NCBI RefSeq assembly: GCF_000801335.2
Contig: NZ_JSEH01000002.1
Location: 124,001-188,000 of the forward strand
Source: Desulfovibrio sp. TomC
Lineage (GTDB): Bacteria > Desulfobacterota > Desulfovibrionia > Desulfovibrionales > Desulfovibrionaceae
Direction of reading: 5' to 3'
DNA: 64,000 nt
Positions 1,392 through 30,794 of this stretch are shown here, one piece after another (position 1 is the first letter of the stretch; each line of letters begins with the position of its first letter). The position numbers and the translations under genes are program-made. Below the pieces are notes generated by a model. The model searched no databases. It was not told the origin of the DNA and saw only the letters and a list, made by a program, of their open reading frames with translations.

Positions 1392-3347
1392 ATGCCAACC
1401 GGAGCAACTCCCGTTGTTGCCACCTGCACCCGCGATTGTCCGAGCGCCTGCGGGCTTCTGGCCCATGTCGAAAACGGCCGGGTGGTCAAACTGACCGGCA
1501 ATCCCGACCACCCCGTCAACCTGGGCACGGTCTGCCGCAAAGTGCCGGCTTTTGTGCGCCGCATGAACAGCCCGCATCGGGTGCTCACGCCGCTTCGCCG
1601 CCGCAATGGTTCCTGGACGGCGGTTTCCTGGAAAGACGCCCTGGACGAGATGGCCGACCGGCTCAAGGATTGCGTGGAGCGGCTCGGGCCGGAGTCCATT
1701 CTCTATTATATGGGTTTCGGCGAGCGCACGGCGCTTAAAATCCTCAACGCCCGGTTTTTCGCCCATCTCGGAGGGGTCACCACCCTGCGCGGCACCTTGT
1801 GCGGCGGCACCGGCTACGCCGCCCAAAGCCTGGATTACGGTCCCCGCGTCTCCCACGATCCGGTCGATCTGGCCAATGCCCGCACCATCGTCTTGTGGGG
1901 CCGCAATCCCGCCGCCACCCAGTTCGGGCTTATGCCACACCTGCGTAAGGCCCGGCAGCGGGGCGCCAAGGTGGTGCTCATCGATCCGCGAAACAGCGAA
2001 TCGGCCGCCTTGGCCGACGTCCATATCCGGCCAAAGCCCGGCCGTGACGCTTTTCTGGCCCTGGCCGTGGCCAAATACATCATCGAGCAAGGCTGGCAGG
2101 ATCAGGAATTCCTGGCCAAACACACCGACAACCTGGAGGCCTTTTTTGACCTCCTGGCCCGGTTGTCCTTTGAGGAGTTGCTTGCGGCCTGCGATGTGGA
2201 GGCACTCGCCATTGACGCCCTGGCCCGCGACTACATCGTCGGACGGCCCACGGCCACGCTCCTGGGTTGGGGCCTGCACCGCTTCACCCTTGGCCATGAG
2301 ATGATCCGGGCCGTGGACGCTCTGGGCGCGGTTTCCGGCAACATCGGCATCCCTGGCGGCGGCGTGTCCCAGGGCTTCGAGGAATGGGGACCCTACGATC
2401 AGGTGTTGTGGGGCACGAACCTCCATCCGCCCCGGCGCACTTTTCTCATGCCGCAGATCGGCCGGGAAATCCTGGAAGCGTCCGATCCGCCCGTGGCCAT
2501 GGCCGTCATCTCCGCCGCCAACCCGGTGTGCATGGCCCCCAATTCCGATCTTGTGGCCCAGGCTCTGGACAGCGTGCCCTTTGTCGTGACCATGAACATG
2601 TTTTTAGACGACACGGCCGACCACGCCGACCTGTTTCTGCCCTGCGCCGCCTTTTACGAGCAGCGCGACATCGTGGCCAGCTTCGGCCACAACATGGTCG
2701 GGCCGCTTCTTCGGGCAGTCGATCCGCCGGGCGAGTGCCGCTCCCAGTTCGATATTTTCATGGATCTGGCCACGCGCTTCCCCTTTGCCGGCGAGTACGT
2801 CAAATCCGAAGAGGCATGGCTGCGTCTGCTTCTGCGGCCGCTCCTGGAAAAGGGCGTGGCCTGGGACGACCTGTGGCGCGGCCCGGTGCGCATCCCGGAC
2901 ACCCCGCTGGTTCCCTGGGCCGACGGCCGGTTCGACACGCCGTCCGGCCGCTTCCAGCTTTTGACCGAGGTCACGACTTGTGCCGACTGCCGCGATGCCG
3001 CCCGCTATCCCTACCATCTGCTGACGGTCGGCGGGGCGCGCCATCTGTGTTCCGAGCGCGAACCCGGCGACGGCGACGGCCCGGCCGATCTGTCCATGGC
3101 CTCCGAGGTGGCGCTGCGTCTGGGCATTGCCGACGGCAGCCCGGCCCGCCTGGTCAGTCCGCTTGGCAGCCTGATTGTGACCGTCCACCATGACGCGACC
3201 CTTCGCCCGGACGTCGTGACCTGTGCTCGTGGCGGCTGGCTCAAAGGCGGCCAGGGAATCAACCGGCTGATCCCGGACATGGTAAGCGAAGTCGGGCAGG
3301 GGACGCCGTATTACGAAGCCCGTGTGGATGTGGAGGCGCTGTCATGA
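1392..3347 (+). CDS. Molybdopterin-dependent oxidoreductase (4Fe-4S, Mo/W-bisMGD)
   Basis: The protein has 651 aa. The frame is open further upstream, but ATG 1392 has a strong AGGAGG at 1382-1387 and begins directly at the family N-terminus. C12, C16, C20 and C48 form the N-terminal 4Fe-4S motif (Cx3Cx3C...C), followed by the molybdopterin oxidoreductase core and a C-terminal molydopterin-dinucleotide binding region (from about residue 545). There is no twin-arginine signal, so it is probably cytoplasmic. Family members are acetylene hydratase-, formate dehydrogenase- or thiosulfate/polysulfide reductase-like; the substrate cannot be read from the sequence. No electron-transfer or membrane-anchor subunit follows, only a 4-bp-overlapping ABM-fold gene, so a stand-alone role is likely. 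Confidence 0.88.
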   Translation: MPTGATPVVATCTRDCPSACGLLAHVENGRVVKLTGNPDHPVNLGTVCRKVPAFVRRMNSPHRVLTPLRRRNGSWTAVSWKDALDEMADRLKDCVERLGPESILYYMGFGERTALKILNARFFAHLGGVTTLRGTLCGGTGYAAQSLDYGPRVSHDPVDLANARTIVLWGRNPAATQFGLMPHLRKARQRGAKVVLIDPRNSESAALADVHIRPKPGRDAFLALAVAKYIIEQGWQDQEFLAKHTDNLEAFFDLLARLSFEELLAACDVEALAIDALARDYIVGRPTATLLGWGLHRFTLGHEMIRAVDALGAVSGNIGIPGGGVSQGFEEWGPYDQVLWGTNLHPPRRTFLMPQIGREILEASDPPVAMAVISAANPVCMAPNSDLVAQALDSVPFVVTMNMFLDDTADHADLFLPCAAFYEQRDIVASFGHNMVGPLLRAVDPPGECRSQFDIFMDLATRFPFAGEYVKSEEAWLRLLLRPLLEKGVAWDDLWRGPVRIPDTPLVPWADGRFDTPSGRFQLLTEVTTCADCRDAARYPYHLLTVGGARHLCSEREPGDGDGPADLSMASEVALRLGIADGSPARLVSPLGSLIVTVHHDATLRPDVVTCARGGWLKGGQGINRLIPDMVSEVGQGTPYYEARVDVEALS

Positions 3348-15953: not shown

Positions 15954-16226
15954 TTAGCCAAGATTTCGGTCAAGAAAGGACAGGTCCACTTCAACAAAGG
16001 CCAGGAGGCCGCCTTCGGCCTCGGCCATCCCCAGTACGTCAGTGGCCGGGCTGGCCTGGGGGGCTTCGTCGGCATCGAAGAGGCAGGCTTCCACCGCCTC
16101 TTGGACGGCGGCAAGAGCTTCGTCCAGGGAGTCGCCGGAAGTGAAGCAGCCGGGCAGATCGGGGATGGTCACGCCGTAGCCCGTGCCGTCGTCGGTGTGC
16201 AGGATGGCCGGATAGGGACGTTTCAC
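15954..16226 (-). CDS. HicB-family antitoxin-like protein
   Basis: The 90-aa protein has the partial-RNase-H-fold HicB pattern: YPAILHTDDGTGYGVTIPDLPGCFTSGDSLDEALAAVQEAVE. It starts at GTG 16226, overlapping the stop of the upstream XRE gene (GTGA), so translation is coupled. No HicA toxin (about 60-80 aa with a catalytic His) is present next to it. Its C-terminal DNA-binding domain is missing; the gene ends at the junction with the XRE remnant, so it may be truncated. Confidence 0.8.
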   Translation of the reverse strand: MKRPYPAILHTDDGTGYGVTIPDLPGCFTSGDSLDEALAAVQEAVEACLFDADEAPQASPATDVLGMAEAEGGLLAFVEVDLSFLDRNLG

Positions 16227-16441
16227 AGAAAAACCTTGTACGAAGTGTTCAGGGCTTTGGCCAAACGCTCGGCCATGGCTTCGCCAATAGGACGCTTACC
16301 GGTTTCCATGGCGGAGATGTCTGCCTTGGTTACGTCGAGCATTACTGCAAGCTGTTCCTGGGTCAGCGCTTCGCGCCGTCGCATACCTCGCAAGATATTA
16401 CCCGGACCCATGTCAGGAGAGGTGTCGGTGATGCCGTACAT
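16223..16441 (-). CDS. XRE-family HTH protein (72 aa)
   Basis: The protein reads MYGITDTSPDMGPGNILRGM, followed by an HTH (LTQEQLAVMLDVTKADISAMETGKRPIGEAMAERLAKAL). It is a close paralogue of the gene at 17312-17530, with an identical C-terminus, and so arose by duplication within the element. It is translationally coupled to the HicB-like gene after it. It is probably an antitoxin-type or autoregulatory DNA-binding protein. Confidence 0.82.
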   Translation of the reverse strand: MYGITDTSPDMGPGNILRGMRRREALTQEQLAVMLDVTKADISAMETGKRPIGEAMAERLAKALNTSYKVFL

Positions 16442-16472
16442 GCGGCCCTCCTACAAGAAAACCCGACAAAAA

Positions 16473-16814
16473 TCACAGCACGGCATCCCGCGCCGCCCTT
16501 TCGGCTGCATCGACCACGAATTCGTTGAGGCTTTTGCCTTTGGCCTTGGCGGCGACGGCCAGAAGTCGATGGATTTCCGGAGACAGACGCAGCCGGAATT
16601 GCCCGGAGCAGGGCGTTTCAGGGGGTCTGCCTGCCTGGGCGCACAAGCCCAGATAATCCTCCACGGAATCGGCCAGGGCTTGCCGCAGTTCTTCGACCGA
16701 GCGGCCGGAGAAATGAATCACATCCCGGGTGCCTATCACCTGGCCGTGGAATTCATCGTCGCCGGGAATGAAATCAAAATATCCGGTGAAGCCCTTGTAA
16801 GTCATGGCGTTCAT
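16473..16814 (-). CDS. HicB-family antitoxin with C-terminal ribbon-helix-helix
   Basis: The 113-aa protein begins YKGFTGYFDFIPGDDEFHGQVIGTRDVIHFSGRSVEELRQALADSVEDYL, the HicB/PF05534 pattern. It ends with a RHH-like DNA-binding segment (FRLRLSPEIHRLLAVAAKAKGKSLNEFVVDAAERA). No HicA toxin is adjacent. Confidence 0.82.
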   Translation of the reverse strand: MNAMTYKGFTGYFDFIPGDDEFHGQVIGTRDVIHFSGRSVEELRQALADSVEDYLGLCAQAGRPPETPCSGQFRLRLSPEIHRLLAVAAKAKGKSLNEFVVDAAERAARDAVL

Positions 16815-16892
16815 CGTTTTGGCCCTGGCGCTACGGCCTGCACCCGATTTGTCGAGTCGGCAACGAGTGTCCTGTTGGGGATGGCATATCGG

Positions 16893-17279
16893 CTATTGGC
16901 AGGCCATTTCACGCCGGGCTGCGCGGATCAGGAAAGCGGAGCGGTTGAGGCCGCGTCCTTTGGCGGCGCGGTCGATTTCCTCAAGTGTTCCGGCGGGAAC
17001 CGTGATGTTCACCCGGACCGTGCGCTTATCCATGAACCCGAGATCCACATTGACCAAGGCCCACGCGGCATCCTTGTAAACCGGATCGTCCTTGTAGTGC
17101 TCCAGGCTGCTGGGAGCCGGCTTCTGGAAAGCGCCTTCAAGAATGAGTTCGACAGCTTCCGGGATGTTGCCCAGAGCTTCTTCCAGGGTGTCGCCGGCGG
17201 TGTTGCAGCCGGGGATGTCCGGCAGGGTAACGCCGTAGGCCTTGCCTTTTTCACTGAAGACAGCAGCGGGGAAATACAT
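16893..17279 (-). CDS. HicB-family antitoxin with ribbon-helix-helix (128 aa)
   Basis: YFPAAVFSEKGKAYGVTLPDIPGCNTAGDTLEEAL shows the HicB N-domain. RTVRVNITVPAGTLEEIDRAAKGRGLNRSAFLIRAARREM is a canonical RHH. Full length for the family. It is orphaned: no HicA-like frame lies on either side. It follows the XRE gene at 17312-17530 by 32 bp and is probably in the same transcript. Confidence 0.85.
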   Translation of the reverse strand: MYFPAAVFSEKGKAYGVTLPDIPGCNTAGDTLEEALGNIPEAVELILEGAFQKPAPSSLEHYKDDPVYKDAAWALVNVDLGFMDKRTVRVNITVPAGTLEEIDRAAKGRGLNRSAFLIRAARREMACQ

Positions 17280-17311
17280 AACGCCCTCCTGCCTCTGTCG
17301 ACTTTTTATTT

Positions 17312-17530
17312 CTACAGGAAAACCTTGTATGAGGTGTTCAGAGCCTTAGCCAAGCGCTCGGCCATGGCTTTGCCAATAGGACGCTTTCCTGTTTCCATTG
17401 CGGAGATATTGGCCTTCGTGGTTCCGATCTCTTCAGCCAGGCGTTCCTGGGTCAAGTCTTCGCGACGTCGCATGCCCCGCAAGATATTACCAGGACCCAT
17501 GTCGGGAAAGGTGTCGGCGATGCCGTACAT
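17312..17530 (-). CDS. XRE-family HTH protein (72 aa), paralogue of 16223-16441
   Basis: It has the same MYGIADTFPDMGPGNILRGMR opening and LAKALNTSYKVFL ending as its paralogue. The HTH (LTQERLAEEIGTTKANISAMETGKRPIG) differs mainly in the second and third helices, so operator specificity may have diverged. It is also related to the antitoxin at 17540-17872 (shared METGxRPIG core). It begins 9 bp after that gene. Confidence 0.82.
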   Translation of the reverse strand: MYGIADTFPDMGPGNILRGMRRREDLTQERLAEEIGTTKANISAMETGKRPIGKAMAERLAKALNTSYKVFL

Positions 17531-17539
17531 GCGGCCGTC

Positions 17540-17872
17540 CTACAAGAAAATCCGCCAGTTCATACCCAAGGCCTTGCCCAGTTTCTTGGCCATCTCCTTG
17601 CCAATGGGCCTCGTACCCCGTTCCATCCCGGAGATATGGGACTTGTGGACGCTGATGGCAGCCGCGAGCTGCACCTGGGTCATCTCGCGCAATCCGCGCG
17701 CGCCGGAAAGAATTTTCCCCGGCGTCGAGTCGGCAAAGAATTCCTCGGCAGGAATATTTGGTTCGGCAGCCTCTTCAATGGCCCGTGCCACAGCTTCTGC
17801 GCGATCCGCCGGAACGGCGGCGCTGACGATCACGTATCCGTCAGTACGGGGCGTTTTCGTGAGTTCCAACAT
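17540..17872 (-). CDS. XRE-family antitoxin of the RelE/HigB-like pair
   Basis: The 110-aa protein has an N-terminal beta-rich domain (residues 1-50) and a C-terminal HTH (MTQVQLAAAISVHKSHISGMERGTRPIGKEMAKKLGKAL). It overlaps the upstream toxin gene by 32 bp. Toxin-first order with an HTH antitoxin is the HigBA arrangement. It presumably neutralises the toxin and represses the shared promoter at 18135-18163. Confidence 0.85.
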   Translation of the reverse strand: MLELTKTPRTDGYVIVSAAVPADRAEAVARAIEEAAEPNIPAEEFFADSTPGKILSGARGLREMTQVQLAAAISVHKSHISGMERGTRPIGKEMAKKLGKALGMNWRIFL

Positions 17873-18128
17873 AGGTCACCTCCACCAGTATGGCTACACT
17901 GCCCTTGACCTGCCAAACGACCACATAAGTGGGGCGGCCCTTGTTCAGGTGGCAATGGTATATTTCGCCTCGCTGGTTTTTGAGTTTGCCAAAATGAGCC
18001 ATCGAGGGTTGCACTGGTCCTTCGAGAGCAATGAGCGCCCGCAAAGCGTCCAGGCGATTGCGGATGCGCTCGGGAAGTTTCGCGGCCTGCTTGGCAGCCT
18101 TGGGCGTAAGTTCAACTCTCCATACCAT
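17841..18128 (-). CDS. RelE/HigB-like toxin
   Basis: The 95-aa protein has the RelE/ParE fold signature: VWRVELTPKAAKQAAKLPERIRNRLDALRALI, a basic central strand, GEIYHCHLNKGRPTYVVVWQV, and a final strand VTYVGTHENAPY. RelE/HigB toxins are ribosome-dependent mRNases; the exact catalytic set is not certain here. It is the only obvious toxin in the eight-gene minus-strand array and its first gene. Confidence 0.82.
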   Translation of the reverse strand: MVWRVELTPKAAKQAAKLPERIRNRLDALRALIALEGPVQPSMAHFGKLKNQRGEIYHCHLNKGRPTYVVVWQVKGSVAILVEVTYVGTHENAPY

Positions 18129-18170: not shown

Positions 18171-18394
18171 CTCTTGACGCCCCCGGCCCGCCTCATGCAC
18201 GTTTGGTCAACCAATTTTGTGAGGCGTCCTGCCGCCTTGATCCGGTCCCAAGCCGGAACAATAGAGCGGGCTTTTTGCATTTGTCGCCCATGCACCTCCC
18301 TTCGGGGTGGGGCAATGAATTGGCGGTATGACGTCCGGGTGTCCGCGAGGCCCCGGCTGCTCGTAAGGCAGGGGAGCGTCATGCCGCCTTTTTT
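18171..18394 (+). ncRNA. C4-antisense-like structured RNA, copy 1
   Basis: This is the first of two related leader modules. It ends in an intrinsic terminator: arms 18322-18333 and 18377-18388 pair over 12 bp, followed by six T. An upstream segment (18292-18299, GCACCTCC) is perfectly complementary to the Shine-Dalgarno region of the next gene (18417-18424), and 18308-18316 is perfectly complementary to 18395-18403. The two pairs are in antisense order, as in the a'/b' and a''/b'' segments of phage P1 C4 RNA. The 5' end and promoter are not certain. Confidence 0.65.
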
Positions 18395-18427
18395 ATTGCC
18401 CCAATCCCAACCTTACGGAGGTGCGCC

Positions 18428-18877
18428 ATGAACAGTCTTTCCCCCAACCTGACCATCGTCGCGGGACGTCCGGTCGTCTCCAGCCTCACTGTGGCCGCGC
18501 ATTTCGGCAAAGAGCATAAGAATGTTCTGCGGGATATCCGGGAACTCCTTGCCCATTTGCCCGACGAACTATGTGCGCTCAATTTTGAGCGCACGCAGGA
18601 TGATTGCGTCCTCTTGACGCCCTCGGCCCGCCTCGGGCATGGTTGGCGTCCCTACAGTACGTGGCGTCCTGCCGCCACCGCCGTCCCTTCCCAGGGGGCA
18701 GCGAAAGAGCGGGATTTATTGTTTCGTCGCCCATGCGCCTCCCCTTTGGGGAAGGGCTCGTATTGGCGGCGGCATGACGTCCGGGTGTCCGCGAGGCCCC
18801 GGCTGCGTACTGCAGGGGAGCGTCATGCCGTCGCCTTTTTTCGTGCCCAAATCCCAACAGTACGAGGTGCATCATGA
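18428..18877 (+). pseudogene. Truncated Rha-family regulator with read-through into AntA
   Basis: Residues 1-57 are a phage Rha N-terminus (NLTIVAGRPVVSSLTVAAHFGKEHKNVLRDIRELL). The similarity ends abruptly at the boundary with the second structured-RNA copy (about 18611). The open frame then runs, without protein-like character, through that RNA and stops at TGA 18875-18877, overlapping the AntA start (ATGA). The full Rha C-terminal half is gone. The frame may survive because it couples translation to AntA, like icd in P1. ATG 18428 has GGAGGTG upstream. Confidence 0.75.
18612..18841 (+). ncRNA. C4-antisense-like structured RNA, copy 2
   Basis: It is a diverged repeat of 18171-18394: nearly identical at both ends (TTGACGCCCTCGGCCCGCCT and the terminator region), variable in the middle. 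The terminator stem is 15 bp with one mismatch (18765-18779 with 18821-18835), then six T. The segment ATGCGCCTC (18733-18741) can pair, with one G-U, with GAGGTGCAT (18864-18872), which holds the ribosome site of AntA. Confidence 0.65.
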
Positions 18878-19629
18878 CCAGACTCATCCCCATCCACTCC
18901 GGCCAGCTGGCCGGCGAAGTCGTCCAGACCATCTGTGCCCGTGACCTGCACGCTTTCCTGGAAGTCGAAACCCGGTTCGATGATTGGATCCGGCGTCGAA
19001 TCGAGGAGTACGGCTTCGTCGAAAATCAAGATTTTGTAGCAGGGGATTTTTCCTCAAAATTGAGGAAAAATGGGCGAGGCCGGCCGGCCATCGACTACCA
19101 CCTGTCCATCGACATGGCCAAGGAACTGGCCATGGTCGAAAAGACCGACAAGGGCCGGCAGGCCCGCCGCTACTTCATCGACTGCGAACGCCGGGCCAAG
19201 GCCGCTGCGCACCTCGCCTTGGGGCCTCAAACCCCATCCCACCCCGCCGAAAGCCCGTTGCTCATCCTGGAAGGCGAACTGGCCCGCATCCGGGCCAACG
19301 TCGCTTTTTTCAAGGACATGGCCGTGGTGCTCAACACCCTGGCCTTCACCCGCGACGCCGACGCATTTTCCAGAAGCATGGCCGGCGCGCTGAGGGACAT
19401 CGCCCAAAGCAGCAGCGACATGCTCGGGCGGGTCGCCGCGGACGTGGGCCAAGTGCGCGGCCGGACGCTGGCAGCCGTCCAAACTGCCCTGGCTGTCGGT
19501 CTGGTCAGTCCGGCCGATGCCGCAGCTCGATCCGCCAAGGCAGCAAAAGCGGCCCGGGCGCGTTGGGACAAGGAACGGGATAAGAAAGCCGCCACGCCTA
19601 AAGGCAGGAAGGGCGGCACTGTGCATTAG
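18874..19629 (+). CDS. AntA/AntB-type phage antirepressor
   Basis: The 251-aa protein has the AntA domain at residues 1-110 (LHAFLEVETRFDDWIRRRIEEYGFVENQDFV, then RPAIDYHLSIDMAKELAMVEKTDKGRQARRYFIDCE), as in P1 Ant. The C-terminus is helical and ends in a Lys/Arg-rich tail. Antirepressors inactivate the phage repressor and trigger lytic growth. The start codon overlaps the stop of the upstream Rha-derived frame, and a terminator lies 33 bp upstream, so expression is probably tightly controlled by RNA. Confidence 0.88.
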   Translation: MTRLIPIHSGQLAGEVVQTICARDLHAFLEVETRFDDWIRRRIEEYGFVENQDFVAGDFSSKLRKNGRGRPAIDYHLSIDMAKELAMVEKTDKGRQARRYFIDCERRAKAAAHLALGPQTPSHPAESPLLILEGELARIRANVAFFKDMAVVLNTLAFTRDADAFSRSMAGALRDIAQSSSDMLGRVAADVGQVRGRTLAAVQTALAVGLVSPADAAARSAKAAKAARARWDKERDKKAATPKGRKGGTVH

Positions 19630-19695: not shown

Positions 19696-20664
19696 ATGGC
19701 CACGCCACGAAACCGGCGCCCTGAATCCGGGCCGGCAGACCTGACAGGGATGCTGCTGCGCAATGTGCCGCCGCACAACCTTGACGCCGAGCAGGCCGTG
19801 CTTGGCGGGGTGCTTATCAAACCATCGATCCTGGACAAACTGGGGATCGAACTGCGCCGTGTGGATTTTTACGATCCCAGCCACCAGATGATCTGGGACG
19901 CGATGGTGGGCCTGTGGCGTGAAAACAAGCCAGTGGATCTGATCACCTTGGCTACCGCGCTGACTGCCGCCGGGCAGCTCGAGAAAGCCGGCGGCCCGGC
20001 CTACCTGGGCCAACTGGCCGGCTGCATCCTTTCGGCCGCCAACACCCTGCACCATGCCGGCATTATGCGGGCCATGTCCAAGCGCCGGTCAATGGCGGTC
20101 ATGGGCCGGCGCATCATCGAAATTGCCTACGATCCGGAGCGTGATCCGGCCGAGTTTGTGTCCATTGCCCAGACGGCGTCCGATGCGGTGCTCAAGGACC
20201 GGCTGGATACCCACGGCGAGACGCCGGATGAATTTCTGGACCCGTACACCGCGTACCTGGAGAAGCTCGAAGAGTCGGGCGGCGGCGGCGTTTCCACGCC
20301 GTTTTGGAAGCTCAACGGGCTTATACGCTCGTTCATGCCCGGGGAAATGATTGTCGTCGGGGCCCGGCCAAGCCACGGCAAGACGGCCCTGGCCCTGACC
20401 TTTGCCGAACACGCTATCGGGCTTGGGCATCCGACCGGGATTTTCTCCCTGGAGATGGGCAGGCATCAGCTGCTTAACCGCATGTTTTCCTCTGGGGCCG
20501 GGGTGGCGGCCCAGCGATTCCGGGACGGCAAATTTTCCGACGAGGACTGGTCCAGGATTTACGATCACTGCCAGCGCATGAAGCAGATGCCGCTTCGCAT
20601 CTACGACAAGCCGGCGCGCAAACCTTCCGACATCCGGGCCGCCTACGCCTACGAGCTGGTGTGA
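19696..20664 (+). CDS. DnaB-like replicative helicase, C-terminally truncated
   Basis: The protein has 322 aa, against about 450 for the family. The N-terminal DnaB domain is complete (VPPHNLDAEQAVLGGVL...), the Walker A motif is present (GARPSHGKTAL) and so is the following FSLEM motif. The frame stops before the Walker B, H3/H4 and arginine-finger regions, so it cannot be an active helicase alone. The stop is 9 bp before the terminase start, as if a deletion joined replication and packaging genes. AGGGGGAGCG lies just upstream of ATG 19696. Confidence 0.82.
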   Translation: MATPRNRRPESGPADLTGMLLRNVPPHNLDAEQAVLGGVLIKPSILDKLGIELRRVDFYDPSHQMIWDAMVGLWRENKPVDLITLATALTAAGQLEKAGGPAYLGQLAGCILSAANTLHHAGIMRAMSKRRSMAVMGRRIIEIAYDPERDPAEFVSIAQTASDAVLKDRLDTHGETPDEFLDPYTAYLEKLEESGGGGVSTPFWKLNGLIRSFMPGEMIVVGARPSHGKTALALTFAEHAIGLGHPTGIFSLEMGRHQLLNRMFSSGAGVAAQRFRDGKFSDEDWSRIYDHCQRMKQMPLRIYDKPARKPSDIRAAYAYELV

Positions 20665-20673
20665 GGAGGGATT

Positions 20674-22305
20674 ATGGCTGGCAGCCGGCGGACATCGGGA
20701 CTCATGGCAAAGGATGGGCGGTCGATCATGACCGACTTCCTGACCAAGGTGCAGACGGTGGTCCAGACGACAGAGCAGGCCCCCCCCGGAGGGGTGGGGG
20801 GGTGGGCCTGTCAGAAGGGGGTGGTGCTCGACCGGGGCCCCTTCTCCTTCTCCCGTCACGAATGTCTGCAGGAGCCGTATTCCGACGATCATCCCCGCCA
20901 GGTCGAAATGAAGTGCGCCCAGATGGGCAACACCACCCGGGCCATTTTGCGGGCGTTCTGGTGCGCCCTGTTCATGCCCTTTGTCGGCATCCTGTACCTG
21001 TTCCCGTCGTCCAAGGGCTCGGGCGACTTCTCGCGGACCCGCGTCGGGCCGCTGGTGGACCGTAACGCTGATACCCTGGGCAAGTGGGTGCAGAACACCG
21101 ACTCCATCGGCGTCAAGCAGGTGCGGGGCAAAAACCTGCTGTTTCGCGGCACGAAGTCCACGGAAGGGTTGCGCTCGGACCCGGTGGACTTCGTGATCTA
21201 CGACGAATTTGACCTGTTTCCGGCCGGAATCGACGCGGTGGCCCGGGAGCGCATGGCCCACTCGGACCACAAGTGGGAGCATTTCCTGTCCAACCCGACC
21301 CTGCCGGATTTCGGGATTGACCGCCTGTACCAGCTCACGGACCAGCGGCGCTGGCTGCTCAAGTGCCCGGCCTGCGGCGGCTGGACCGATCCGGTGGACG
21401 AGTGGGAAGCGGCGGCCTCTCCCCGGGAGCGTGGGGTGCCGGACCTTTTGTGGGAGCTGTCGGACGGGACGGTGGTGCTGCGGTGCATGCGCTGCCGCGA
21501 CGGCGTGCTGCATCCGGCCCAAGGCGAGTGGGTGGCGCGCAAGCCCGGGGTGGCGGACTGGCGCGGCTACCAGTACAGCCAGCTCTTTTCGCAGTATGTG
21601 ACCCCGGCGGAAATTCTCTCGCAGTACCGCACCACGCTTAGCATGTCCGCGTTTTACAACTACAAGCTCGGGCTGGCCTACGTCGAGGCGGATTGCCGCA
21701 TCACCAAGGAGGAAGTGCTGGCCCTGTGCGGTTCCCACGGCATTGCCGCCTCGGACCAGGGGCCGTGCTGCATGGGGGTGGACCAGGGCAAAGGGCTGCA
21801 TGTGGTCATCGGGCGGCGGGACGGCACCATCATCCACCTTGGCGAGTACCGGGATTTCGAGGAGCTTGATGGGTTGATGCGGCAGTTTAACGTGTCGCGG
21901 TGCGTTATCGACGGCATGCCCGAGACGCGCAAGGCCCGTGAGTTTGCAGCGCGTTTCCCGGGTCGGGTGTTCCTCAACTGGTACAGCCCGCACCAGAAGG
22001 GGGCCTATGCCTGGAACGAGGAGAAACTGCAGGTGTCGGTCAACCGGACGGAAAGCATGGACGCGGCCCATGAAGCCCTGACCGGAAAACGGCTGGTGCT
22101 GCCCAGACATTGCGGCCCGGTGGACGTGTTCGCTTCGCACTGCGCCGCGACGGCCAAGAAGCTGGAAGAAGACGAAGAGACGGGGAGCAGGACCTACACC
22201 TGGGTCAAGCTCGGGCCGGACCATTTTCGGCATGCGCTCAACTACTGGGGCATTGCGGCGGATTTCGCCAGCAACAGTTTTTATGCGGGGATGAACTTGC
22301 AATGA
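20674..22305 (+). CDS. Phage terminase large subunit (GpA-like)
   Basis: The 543-aa protein carries FSFSRHECLQEPYSDDHPRQVEMKCAQMG with a degenerate Walker A region and a Walker B VDFVIYDEFD. It also has a Cys-rich zinc-like insertion (KCPACGGW...RCMRCRDG, about residues 229-272) and a C-terminal nuclease region with acidic residues (GVDQGKG, CVIDGMPETRKA). It packages DNA into proheads. ATG 20674 has GAGGAGG at 20663-20669; homology begins only about residue 50, so residues 1-40 may be fusion-derived. No small terminase subunit is obvious nearby. Confidence 0.88.
   Translation: MAGSRRTSGLMAKDGRSIMTDFLTKVQTVVQTTEQAPPGGVGGWACQKGVVLDRGPFSFSRHECLQEPYSDDHPRQVEMKCAQMGNTTRAILRAFWCALFMPFVGILYLFPSSKGSGDFSRTRVGPLVDRNADTLGKWVQNTDSIGVKQVRGKNLLFRGTKSTEGLRSDPVDFVIYDEFDLFPAGIDAVARERMAHSDHKWEHFLSNPTLPDFGIDRLYQLTDQRRWLLKCPACGGWTDPVDEWEAAASPRERGVPDLLWELSDGTVVLRCMRCRDGVLHPAQGEWVARKPGVADWRGYQYSQLFSQYVTPAEILSQYRTTLSMSAFYNYKLGLAYVEADCRITKEEVLALCGSHGIAASDQGPCCMGVDQGKGLHVVIGRRDGTIIHLGEYRDFEELDGLMRQFNVSRCVIDGMPETRKAREFAARFPGRVFLNWYSPHQKGAYAWNEEKLQVSVNRTESMDAAHEALTGKRLVLPRHCGPVDVFASHCAATAKKLEEDEETGSRTYTWVKLGPDHFRHALNYWGIAADFASNSFYAGMNLQ

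Positions 22306-30708: not shown

Positions 30709-30794
<86 letters not shown>

Follow-up and report, generated by a model that had tools for sequence, protein, structure and literature searches.

Two classical cases of phage immunity are based on RNA, namely C4 of phage P1 and CI of phage P4. In the cited passages, C4 of P1 and P7 appears as a three-stem RNA with a loop complementary to a ribosome site, placed in an antirepressor operon and involved in heteroimmunity (PMC5320573, PMC12197685, PMC8198154); it uses two antisense loops, a' and b', and is cut by RNase P 5' of its stem P1 (PMC5320573). For P4, the portion of the literature cited here describes CI as complementary to one upstream and one downstream site (seqA and seqC), and termination by CI is reported (PMC4825925). 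IsrK of the Gifsy-1 prophage, as far as the cited sections go, is both a small and a messenger RNA, with translational coupling to the downstream anrP gene (PMC4825925, PMC12197685). Here, we describe a doubled RNA element from Desulfovibrio sp. TomC and argue that each copy is likely a phage immunity RNA that works like P1 C4 and P4 CI. It would thus repress, whereas IsrK activates.

Two RNA elements ahead of a Rha fragment and an AntA gene

The window, that is, the whole stretch of DNA analysed, comprises 64,000 nt of Desulfovibrio sp. TomC (contig NZ_JSEH01000002.1, positions 124,001-188,000; genome size 5.07 Mb). Self-comparison of the locus revealed two copies of a repeat with 76.7% identity over 283 nt (E 2.8e-37), copy 1 preceding a Rha fragment and copy 2 an AntA gene, and a search of the 5.07 Mb genome with copy 1 returned just these two places. 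According to Pfam, the Rha fragment corresponds to positions 1-42 of 91 of PF09669, and the second gene encodes a PF08346 protein. The original prediction of two diverged copies before a truncated Rha gene and an AntA gene is therefore borne out, as is its claim that the Rha frame reads through copy 2 and ends in an ATGA overlap: the frame at 18428-18877 terminates over the AntA start at 18874.

Downstream of AntA follow a DnaB-type helicase frame and then a terminase frame (Pfam), for which reason we take the region for a prophage. The helicase frame (window 19696-20674) stops after DnaB_C positions 1-120 of 255 and lies immediately next to the terminase frame, so the prophage may carry a deletion. 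On the minus strand, window 15954-18128 holds a run of small toxin-antitoxin-like genes, including two HTH ORFs with near-identical starts (16223-16441 and 17312-17530) and, by eye, HicB-like ORFs; an HTH gene and a ParE/YafQ-like ORF (ParE and YafQ both below the Pfam cut-off) lie beside the RNA. A tRNA gene is found at window 30721-30794, also on the minus strand (Rfam, 75.2 bits).

As read from its sequence, each copy runs from a promoter through a site A close to where the RNA starts, and then through hairpins and a three-stem hairpin (stems P1, P2 and P3) to a site C over a ribosome site. The outer stem of the three-stem hairpin and its U-run form an intrinsic terminator, and the predicted antisense element is the loop of the third stem, CTCGTAAGG in copy 1 and CGTACTG in copy 2. 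The features of the locus are as follows.

18174..18179, plus strand: -35 element TTGACG of RNA 1, a TTGAC-type hexamer upstream of site A; the -10 region near 18197-18202 is weak
18215..18223, plus strand: site A of RNA 1, TTTTGTGAG; pairing with its own loop by wobbles only, weak (-5.0 kcal/mol)
18322..18394, plus strand: RNA 1 core; P1 18322-18333 with 18377-18388, P2 with GNRA loop 18335-18356, P3 18357-18371, U-run 18389-18394
18360..18368, plus strand: antisense loop 1, CTCGTAAGG, the loop of stem P3
18406..18421, plus strand: site C of RNA 1, CCCAA and CCTTACG running into the Shine-Dalgarno sequence GGAGG; 7 Watson-Crick pairs with loop 1 (-11.3 kcal/mol)
18428..18877, plus strand: truncated Rha reading frame, running through RNA 2, with its stop in an ATGA over the AntA start
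18614..18619, plus strand: -35 element TTGACG of RNA 2; -10-like CATGGT near 18638-18643
18655..18661, plus strand: site A of RNA 2, CAGTACG; 7 Watson-Crick pairs with loop 2 (-12.1 kcal/mol)
18765..18841, plus strand: RNA 2 core; P1 18765-18779 with 18821-18835, P2 18781-18802, P3 18803-18815, U-run 18836-18841
18806..18812, plus strand: antisense loop 2, CGTACTG, the loop of stem P3
18853..18867, plus strand: site C of RNA 2, CCCAA and CAGTACG running into GAGG; -10.6 kcal/mol with loop 2, -8.3 with loop 1
18874..19629, plus strand: AntA antirepressor gene (PF08346, E 1.5e-26), whose C-terminal part is common to Rha and AntA proteins of related phages

Both copies thus possess a terminator-type hairpin with a U6 run; from run to ATG there are 33 nt in copy 1 and 32 nt in copy 2, close to the 33-40 bp predicted between intrinsic terminator and start codon. 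The stretch that opens with CTCTTGAC is a conserved -35 element and so probably lies outside the RNA. Predicted duplexes within the window suggest loop 2 to be selective, as it favours its own partners (A2 -12.1 and C2 -10.6 kcal/mol) over those of copy 1 (C1 -4.4, A1 -3.3), and loop 1 to be less so (C1 -11.3, C2 -8.3, A2 -8.0, A1 -5.0). Because its own site A pairs by wobbles only, copy 1 is possibly part-decayed or recombined.

A widespread RNA family and its relation to C4 and c4-2

A DNA search found relatives, some of them short matches, in 12 of 199 genomes of the bacterial family. From 11 MAFFT-aligned sequences, in which 97.1% of cells were paired and 10 of 22 pairs changed on both sides, we built a covariance model of the core hairpin, R1; RNA 1 and RNA 2, both part of its seed, score 88.4 and 80.2 bits. 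R1 matched 76 times in 33 of 288 family genomes and in 7 of 297 genomes of the phylum, five of the latter lying outside the family with weaker matches, and two of the matches being near threshold. All 13 other genomes listed for the genus of the window lack an R1 match, which fits a prophage element. Pattern scans added 11 stretches of viral contigs, some identical in DNA to loci of genome G088, and 17 stretches of genome contigs, among them Desulfovibrio piger ATCC 29098, in which one contig bears copies in spaced pairs, Candidatus Bilophila faecipullorum and Mailhella; a distant blastn comparison of copy 1 with the phage record collection gave no match. Of the 97 R1 hits, 94 were entered (the other three, L025 twice and L028 once, duplicated places found in other loci), seven more collapsed as duplicates to leave 87 elements, and five from outside the family were set aside, so that the main counts refer to 82 elements.

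The 81 distinct rows of an alignment fitted to the model showed changes on both sides at 19 of the 22 P1, P2 and P3 pairs and 98.0% of cells paired, as compared to 30-47% when the rows were slid. A GNRA loop caps P2 in 81 of 82 elements, and equally many end in a U-run of at least 4. In 53 of 60 elements (55 with two at 28 nt), a TTGAC-type -35 element precedes site A by 40-45 nt, as opposed to 3 of 60 in a control window, suggesting that site A lies at or just after the transcription start. Site A is followed by a short hairpin (stem of at least 4 in 53/57 elements; 28% when shuffled), and variable hairpins fill the space between this and the core. Site C overlaps an SD-like AGG in 50 of 54 cases. 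The motif CCCAA or CCAAA precedes 29 of 60 A sites and 36 of 54 C sites, and by eye a similar CCCAA-type motif is present in the loop of the second leader hairpin; it is perhaps a protein site. The idea that all elements keep one particular frame open across the RNA was considered and rejected, as the three frames were open in 20, 19 and 9 of 54 elements, against 0.137 per frame in shuffled sequence.

How does this family relate to the described ones? The original prediction called the window RNAs C4-like and proposed a search with the Rfam C4 model as a check; with E up to 10, neither C4 nor c4-2 matched anywhere in the window. C4 (RF01695) likewise failed to appear at E up to 3 in 11 loci of relatives, where lower-scoring matches of the same clan are hidden, and in four loci (L004, L010, L024 and L046) cmscan at this threshold found neither C4 nor c4-2. 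c4-2 (RF02944) was matched among relatives by locus L053 (44.6 bits; cut-off 41), which lies outside the bacterial family and scores 30.5 bits with R1, and by L096 (36.6) and L047 (32.8) inside it. In 199 genomes of the class, c4-2 found five places, all short of its cut-off, two of which R1 also hits; searching three genomes more closely yielded one more place in common with R1 (three in all, one in G132 and two in G195, scoring 32.6-39). Across the phylum, 2 of 297 genomes matched, one over the cut-off. Genome G551, home of L053, did not emerge from the c4-2 genome search even when searched alone, a result that speaks against the c4-2 link but may be put down to the first stage of this search, in which 150 of 354 candidates were scored. 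The cmscan label of RF02944 is clan CL00128, which we take to be the C4 clan, and the same-clan link to the window RNAs comes only through the relatives that match c4-2.

With c4-2, the RNAs have in common the three-stem plan, a second stem capped by a tetraloop, a loop on the third stem and U's where the model ends; the window copies stay below its gathering cut-off, whereas the GNRA loop and U-run counts above agree with its structure. Three c4-2-like elements (L100, L101 and L102) have 7-8 nt matches both upstream and downstream, as here. By eye, their segment after stem 3 seems to pair too, whereas this segment is mostly a constant GGGGA here. For nine elements that either were found by c4-2 or lie beyond the bacterial family, own upstream matches beat all 10000 permutations, but downstream matches did not (714 reach the observed value).

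Like C4, the window RNAs have three stems and a stem-3 loop complementary to the ribosome site of a downstream antirepressor operon. Unlike C4, which as cited uses two antisense loops, only their stem-3 loop is variable, and a second antisense loop a' on stem 2 is probably absent, judging from the nearly universal GNRA loop of P2. The layout resembles that of P4 CI, in that complementary sites flank the RNA within its own leader for 48 of 70 distinct loops; copy 2 has both, and copy 1 has site A by wobbles only. Taken together, the window RNA probably works like C4/c4-2 and P4 CI and is probably of the same clan; we assign it to neither Rfam family, C4 or c4-2, and regard it as a further variation on the C4/c4-2/P4-CI theme. 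Searches of an open-licence library listed no report of such RNAs, and an earlier mention is possible.

Downstream genes and stacked copies

Homology searches, with the labels of the query genes checked by Pfam domains, assigned a downstream gene to 56 of 82 elements, the hits starting 30 to 1478 nt after the core. Antirepressors account for 32 (21 of BRO-N type, 6 Rha, 3 AntA and 2 of the P22 antirepressor type) and primases for 24, the latter being a further parallel to P4; copies in stacks or double hairpins can count one gene twice, and many of the other 26 elements have little downstream DNA. When 73 of 80 downstream proteins were compared with Pfam and PHROGs, the first genes comprised, by Pfam, 6 Rha, 3 AntA, 2 P22_AR_N, 2 Bro-N and 5 Toprim_3 among the 73.

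The doubling had been thought unusual, but two cores start within 1.5 kb of each other in 10 of 66 loci. Two of these (L008 and L086) are double hairpins, in which two full sets of P1, P2 and P3 at distances of 77 and 80 nt have one A and one C in common; by eye, the match is with the first loop. Among the spaced double loci tested, 6 of 9 have a start codon between the copies and a frame open through RNA 2 (the window, L062, L010, L076, L007 and L087, the last two from one genome), for which the chance is ~0.02 as a product over six loci, two of them from one genome. Five of the six frames overlap the next start, with ATGA in the window and L062; the remaining three loci (L042, L082 and L094) have no ATG start in such a frame. 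Truncation of the upstream gene is evident in the window and in L062 and, by eye, in L076 and L010. In L082, two cores (1963-3002) lack both a site C match of 6 and a nearby gene start and are possible stand-alone antisense RNAs. Two further loci, L061 and L064, are AntA cassettes with loops CGTACTG and CGTTCTG.

One alternative that we regard as possible, while leaning against it, is that copy 1 and the Rha fragment are the decaying remnant of a cassette replacement and that only copy 2 with AntA works. Rha does lack the rest of its domain, site A of copy 1 is weak, and a phage contig (L062) shows the reverse order of the window, an AntA fragment with its RNA followed by an intact Rha gene with the same C-terminal part as AntA of the window. 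Yet copy 1 retains its -35 element, structure, U-run and matching site C, and the upstream frame is open across the second RNA in six of the nine spaced double loci tested. Stacks might instead be layered immunity cassettes, in which an incoming module of RNA plus N-terminal antirepressor domain lands between the resident cassette and the constant C-terminal domain. With the upstream frame left open as far as the following start codon, ribosomes that get past RNA 1 would then unfold the RNA 2 terminator and feed the downstream gene, giving a two-lock switch that remembers earlier immunity types; we rate this as rather unlikely.

Loop pairing, specificity and proposed control

The immunity reading of the individual copies draws on the match between the P3 loop and its two sites. 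The 82 elements carry 70 distinct loops, and in this set, unselected for loop matches, at least 7 Watson-Crick pairs were found between loop and C for 41 of 70 loops (best of 10000 permutations, 11) and between loop and A for 58 of 70 (best, 14). At a threshold of 6 pairs, 48 of 70 loops match both A and C, 12 A only, 6 C only (including window copy 1) and 4 neither; in the stretch searched, 16 thus lack a C match of at least 6 and 10 an A match. Some A-only cases are the double hairpins of L008 and L086, in which by eye C lies beyond the stretch searched. For the 48 elements, own as compared to swapped partners gave z -20.0 for loop-C and z -23.8 for loop-A, values inflated because this set was preselected for matches of 6 or more in A and C. 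That all 48 have a 6-mer common to A and C is largely a result of both matching one short loop.

Loop and sites also change fast. In 8 pairs out of 57 elements that are 0-5% different elsewhere (mean 1.8% in the rest), A differs at 16.7% of positions (11/66), the loop at 18.3% (11/60) and C at 13.8% (9/65), the pairs not being independent; this comparison, not reduced by loop, replaced an earlier one restricted to distinct loops. We read this as co-evolving immunity specificity, as for C4 of P1 and P7, whose heteroimmunity is treated in the cited part of PMC12197685; the co-evolution of loop, A and C suggests that the RNA sets this specificity.

Structure, complementarity of the loop to A and C, promoter position and gene context are all properties of the sequences at hand, and together they suggest how the RNA may act. 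The terminator ahead of the gene, together with the position of A close to the 5' end and of C over the ribosome site, suggests control of both transcription and translation. Transcription would start just before site A, and many transcripts would end at the P1 terminator, giving a short RNA that displays the variable P3 loop. Acting in trans, as we infer, this loop would pair with site C and so cover the ribosome site of the next gene, the antirepressor, and would pair with site A of nascent transcripts, favouring termination as at P4 seqA, while the open frame would couple the two genes. The prophage antirepressor would thereby stay off, and an incoming phage of the same type would be blocked.

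In predicted folds, the 5' arm of stem P1 pairs elsewhere before its 3' arm exists. Its main partner is the segment after site A in 15 of 48 elements (0.83 in copy 2), which may be an antiterminator; own versus swapped partners gave a modest z -4.5 for this pairing and z -2.3 for a control with the other arm (48 elements). An antiterminator common to all elements was rejected, the main partner in the others lying ~50 nt further on. Predicted folding often prefers other partners of P1, whose mean probability is 0.32 (48 elements).

These folds bear on a purely cis-acting leader switch, in which the loop would pair with A or C of its own transcript as pseudoknots, without any free antisense RNA, and choose between termination and read-through or hide the ribosome site. 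Pairing in trans and in cis are not separated by the sequence evidence: loop, A and C lie in one transcript, and the pairing of the P1 5' arm with the post-A segment, as just described, would suit such a switch. Its antiterminator signal is modest when held against the control, however, and a cis switch needs no diversification, yet loop, A and C change fast and 70 distinct loops occur among the 82 elements. Immunity specificity fits this better, and we consider a cis-only switch unlikely.

Finally, the antisense segments originally proposed, 18292-18299 acting on the ribosome site (18417-18424) and 18308-18316 on the post-terminator stretch (18395-18403), are very improbable as such: both complementarities are exact letter for letter in copy 1 and occur in its minimum-energy fold, but over 48 elements own partners scored z -1.9 (own best in 2/48) and z -3.1 (1/48), against -20.0 and -23.8 for loop-C and loop-A in this set preselected for loop matches, so that no own-versus-swapped specificity is kept and the conserved pairing is that of the stem-3 loop with A and C. 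What stands of the prediction is its general idea, a doubled C4-type RNA of three stems whose loop can pair with an antirepressor's ribosome site, the second copy lying inside an open frame that ends in ATGA.

We thus favour immunity RNAs working like those of P1 and P4, now in Desulfovibrio-type bacteria, where one RNA family whose typical members lack an Rfam match precedes both antirepressors, as in P1, and primases, as in P4, and displays dozens of different loops, each set of targets varying along with its loop. If these RNAs act in trans, they would constitute RNA-coded heteroimmunity readable directly from sequence, and the change of specificities would become testable, including through stacked cassettes. 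Should the cassettes indeed be layered, a phage would keep its older RNA specificity upstream while expressing the new one.
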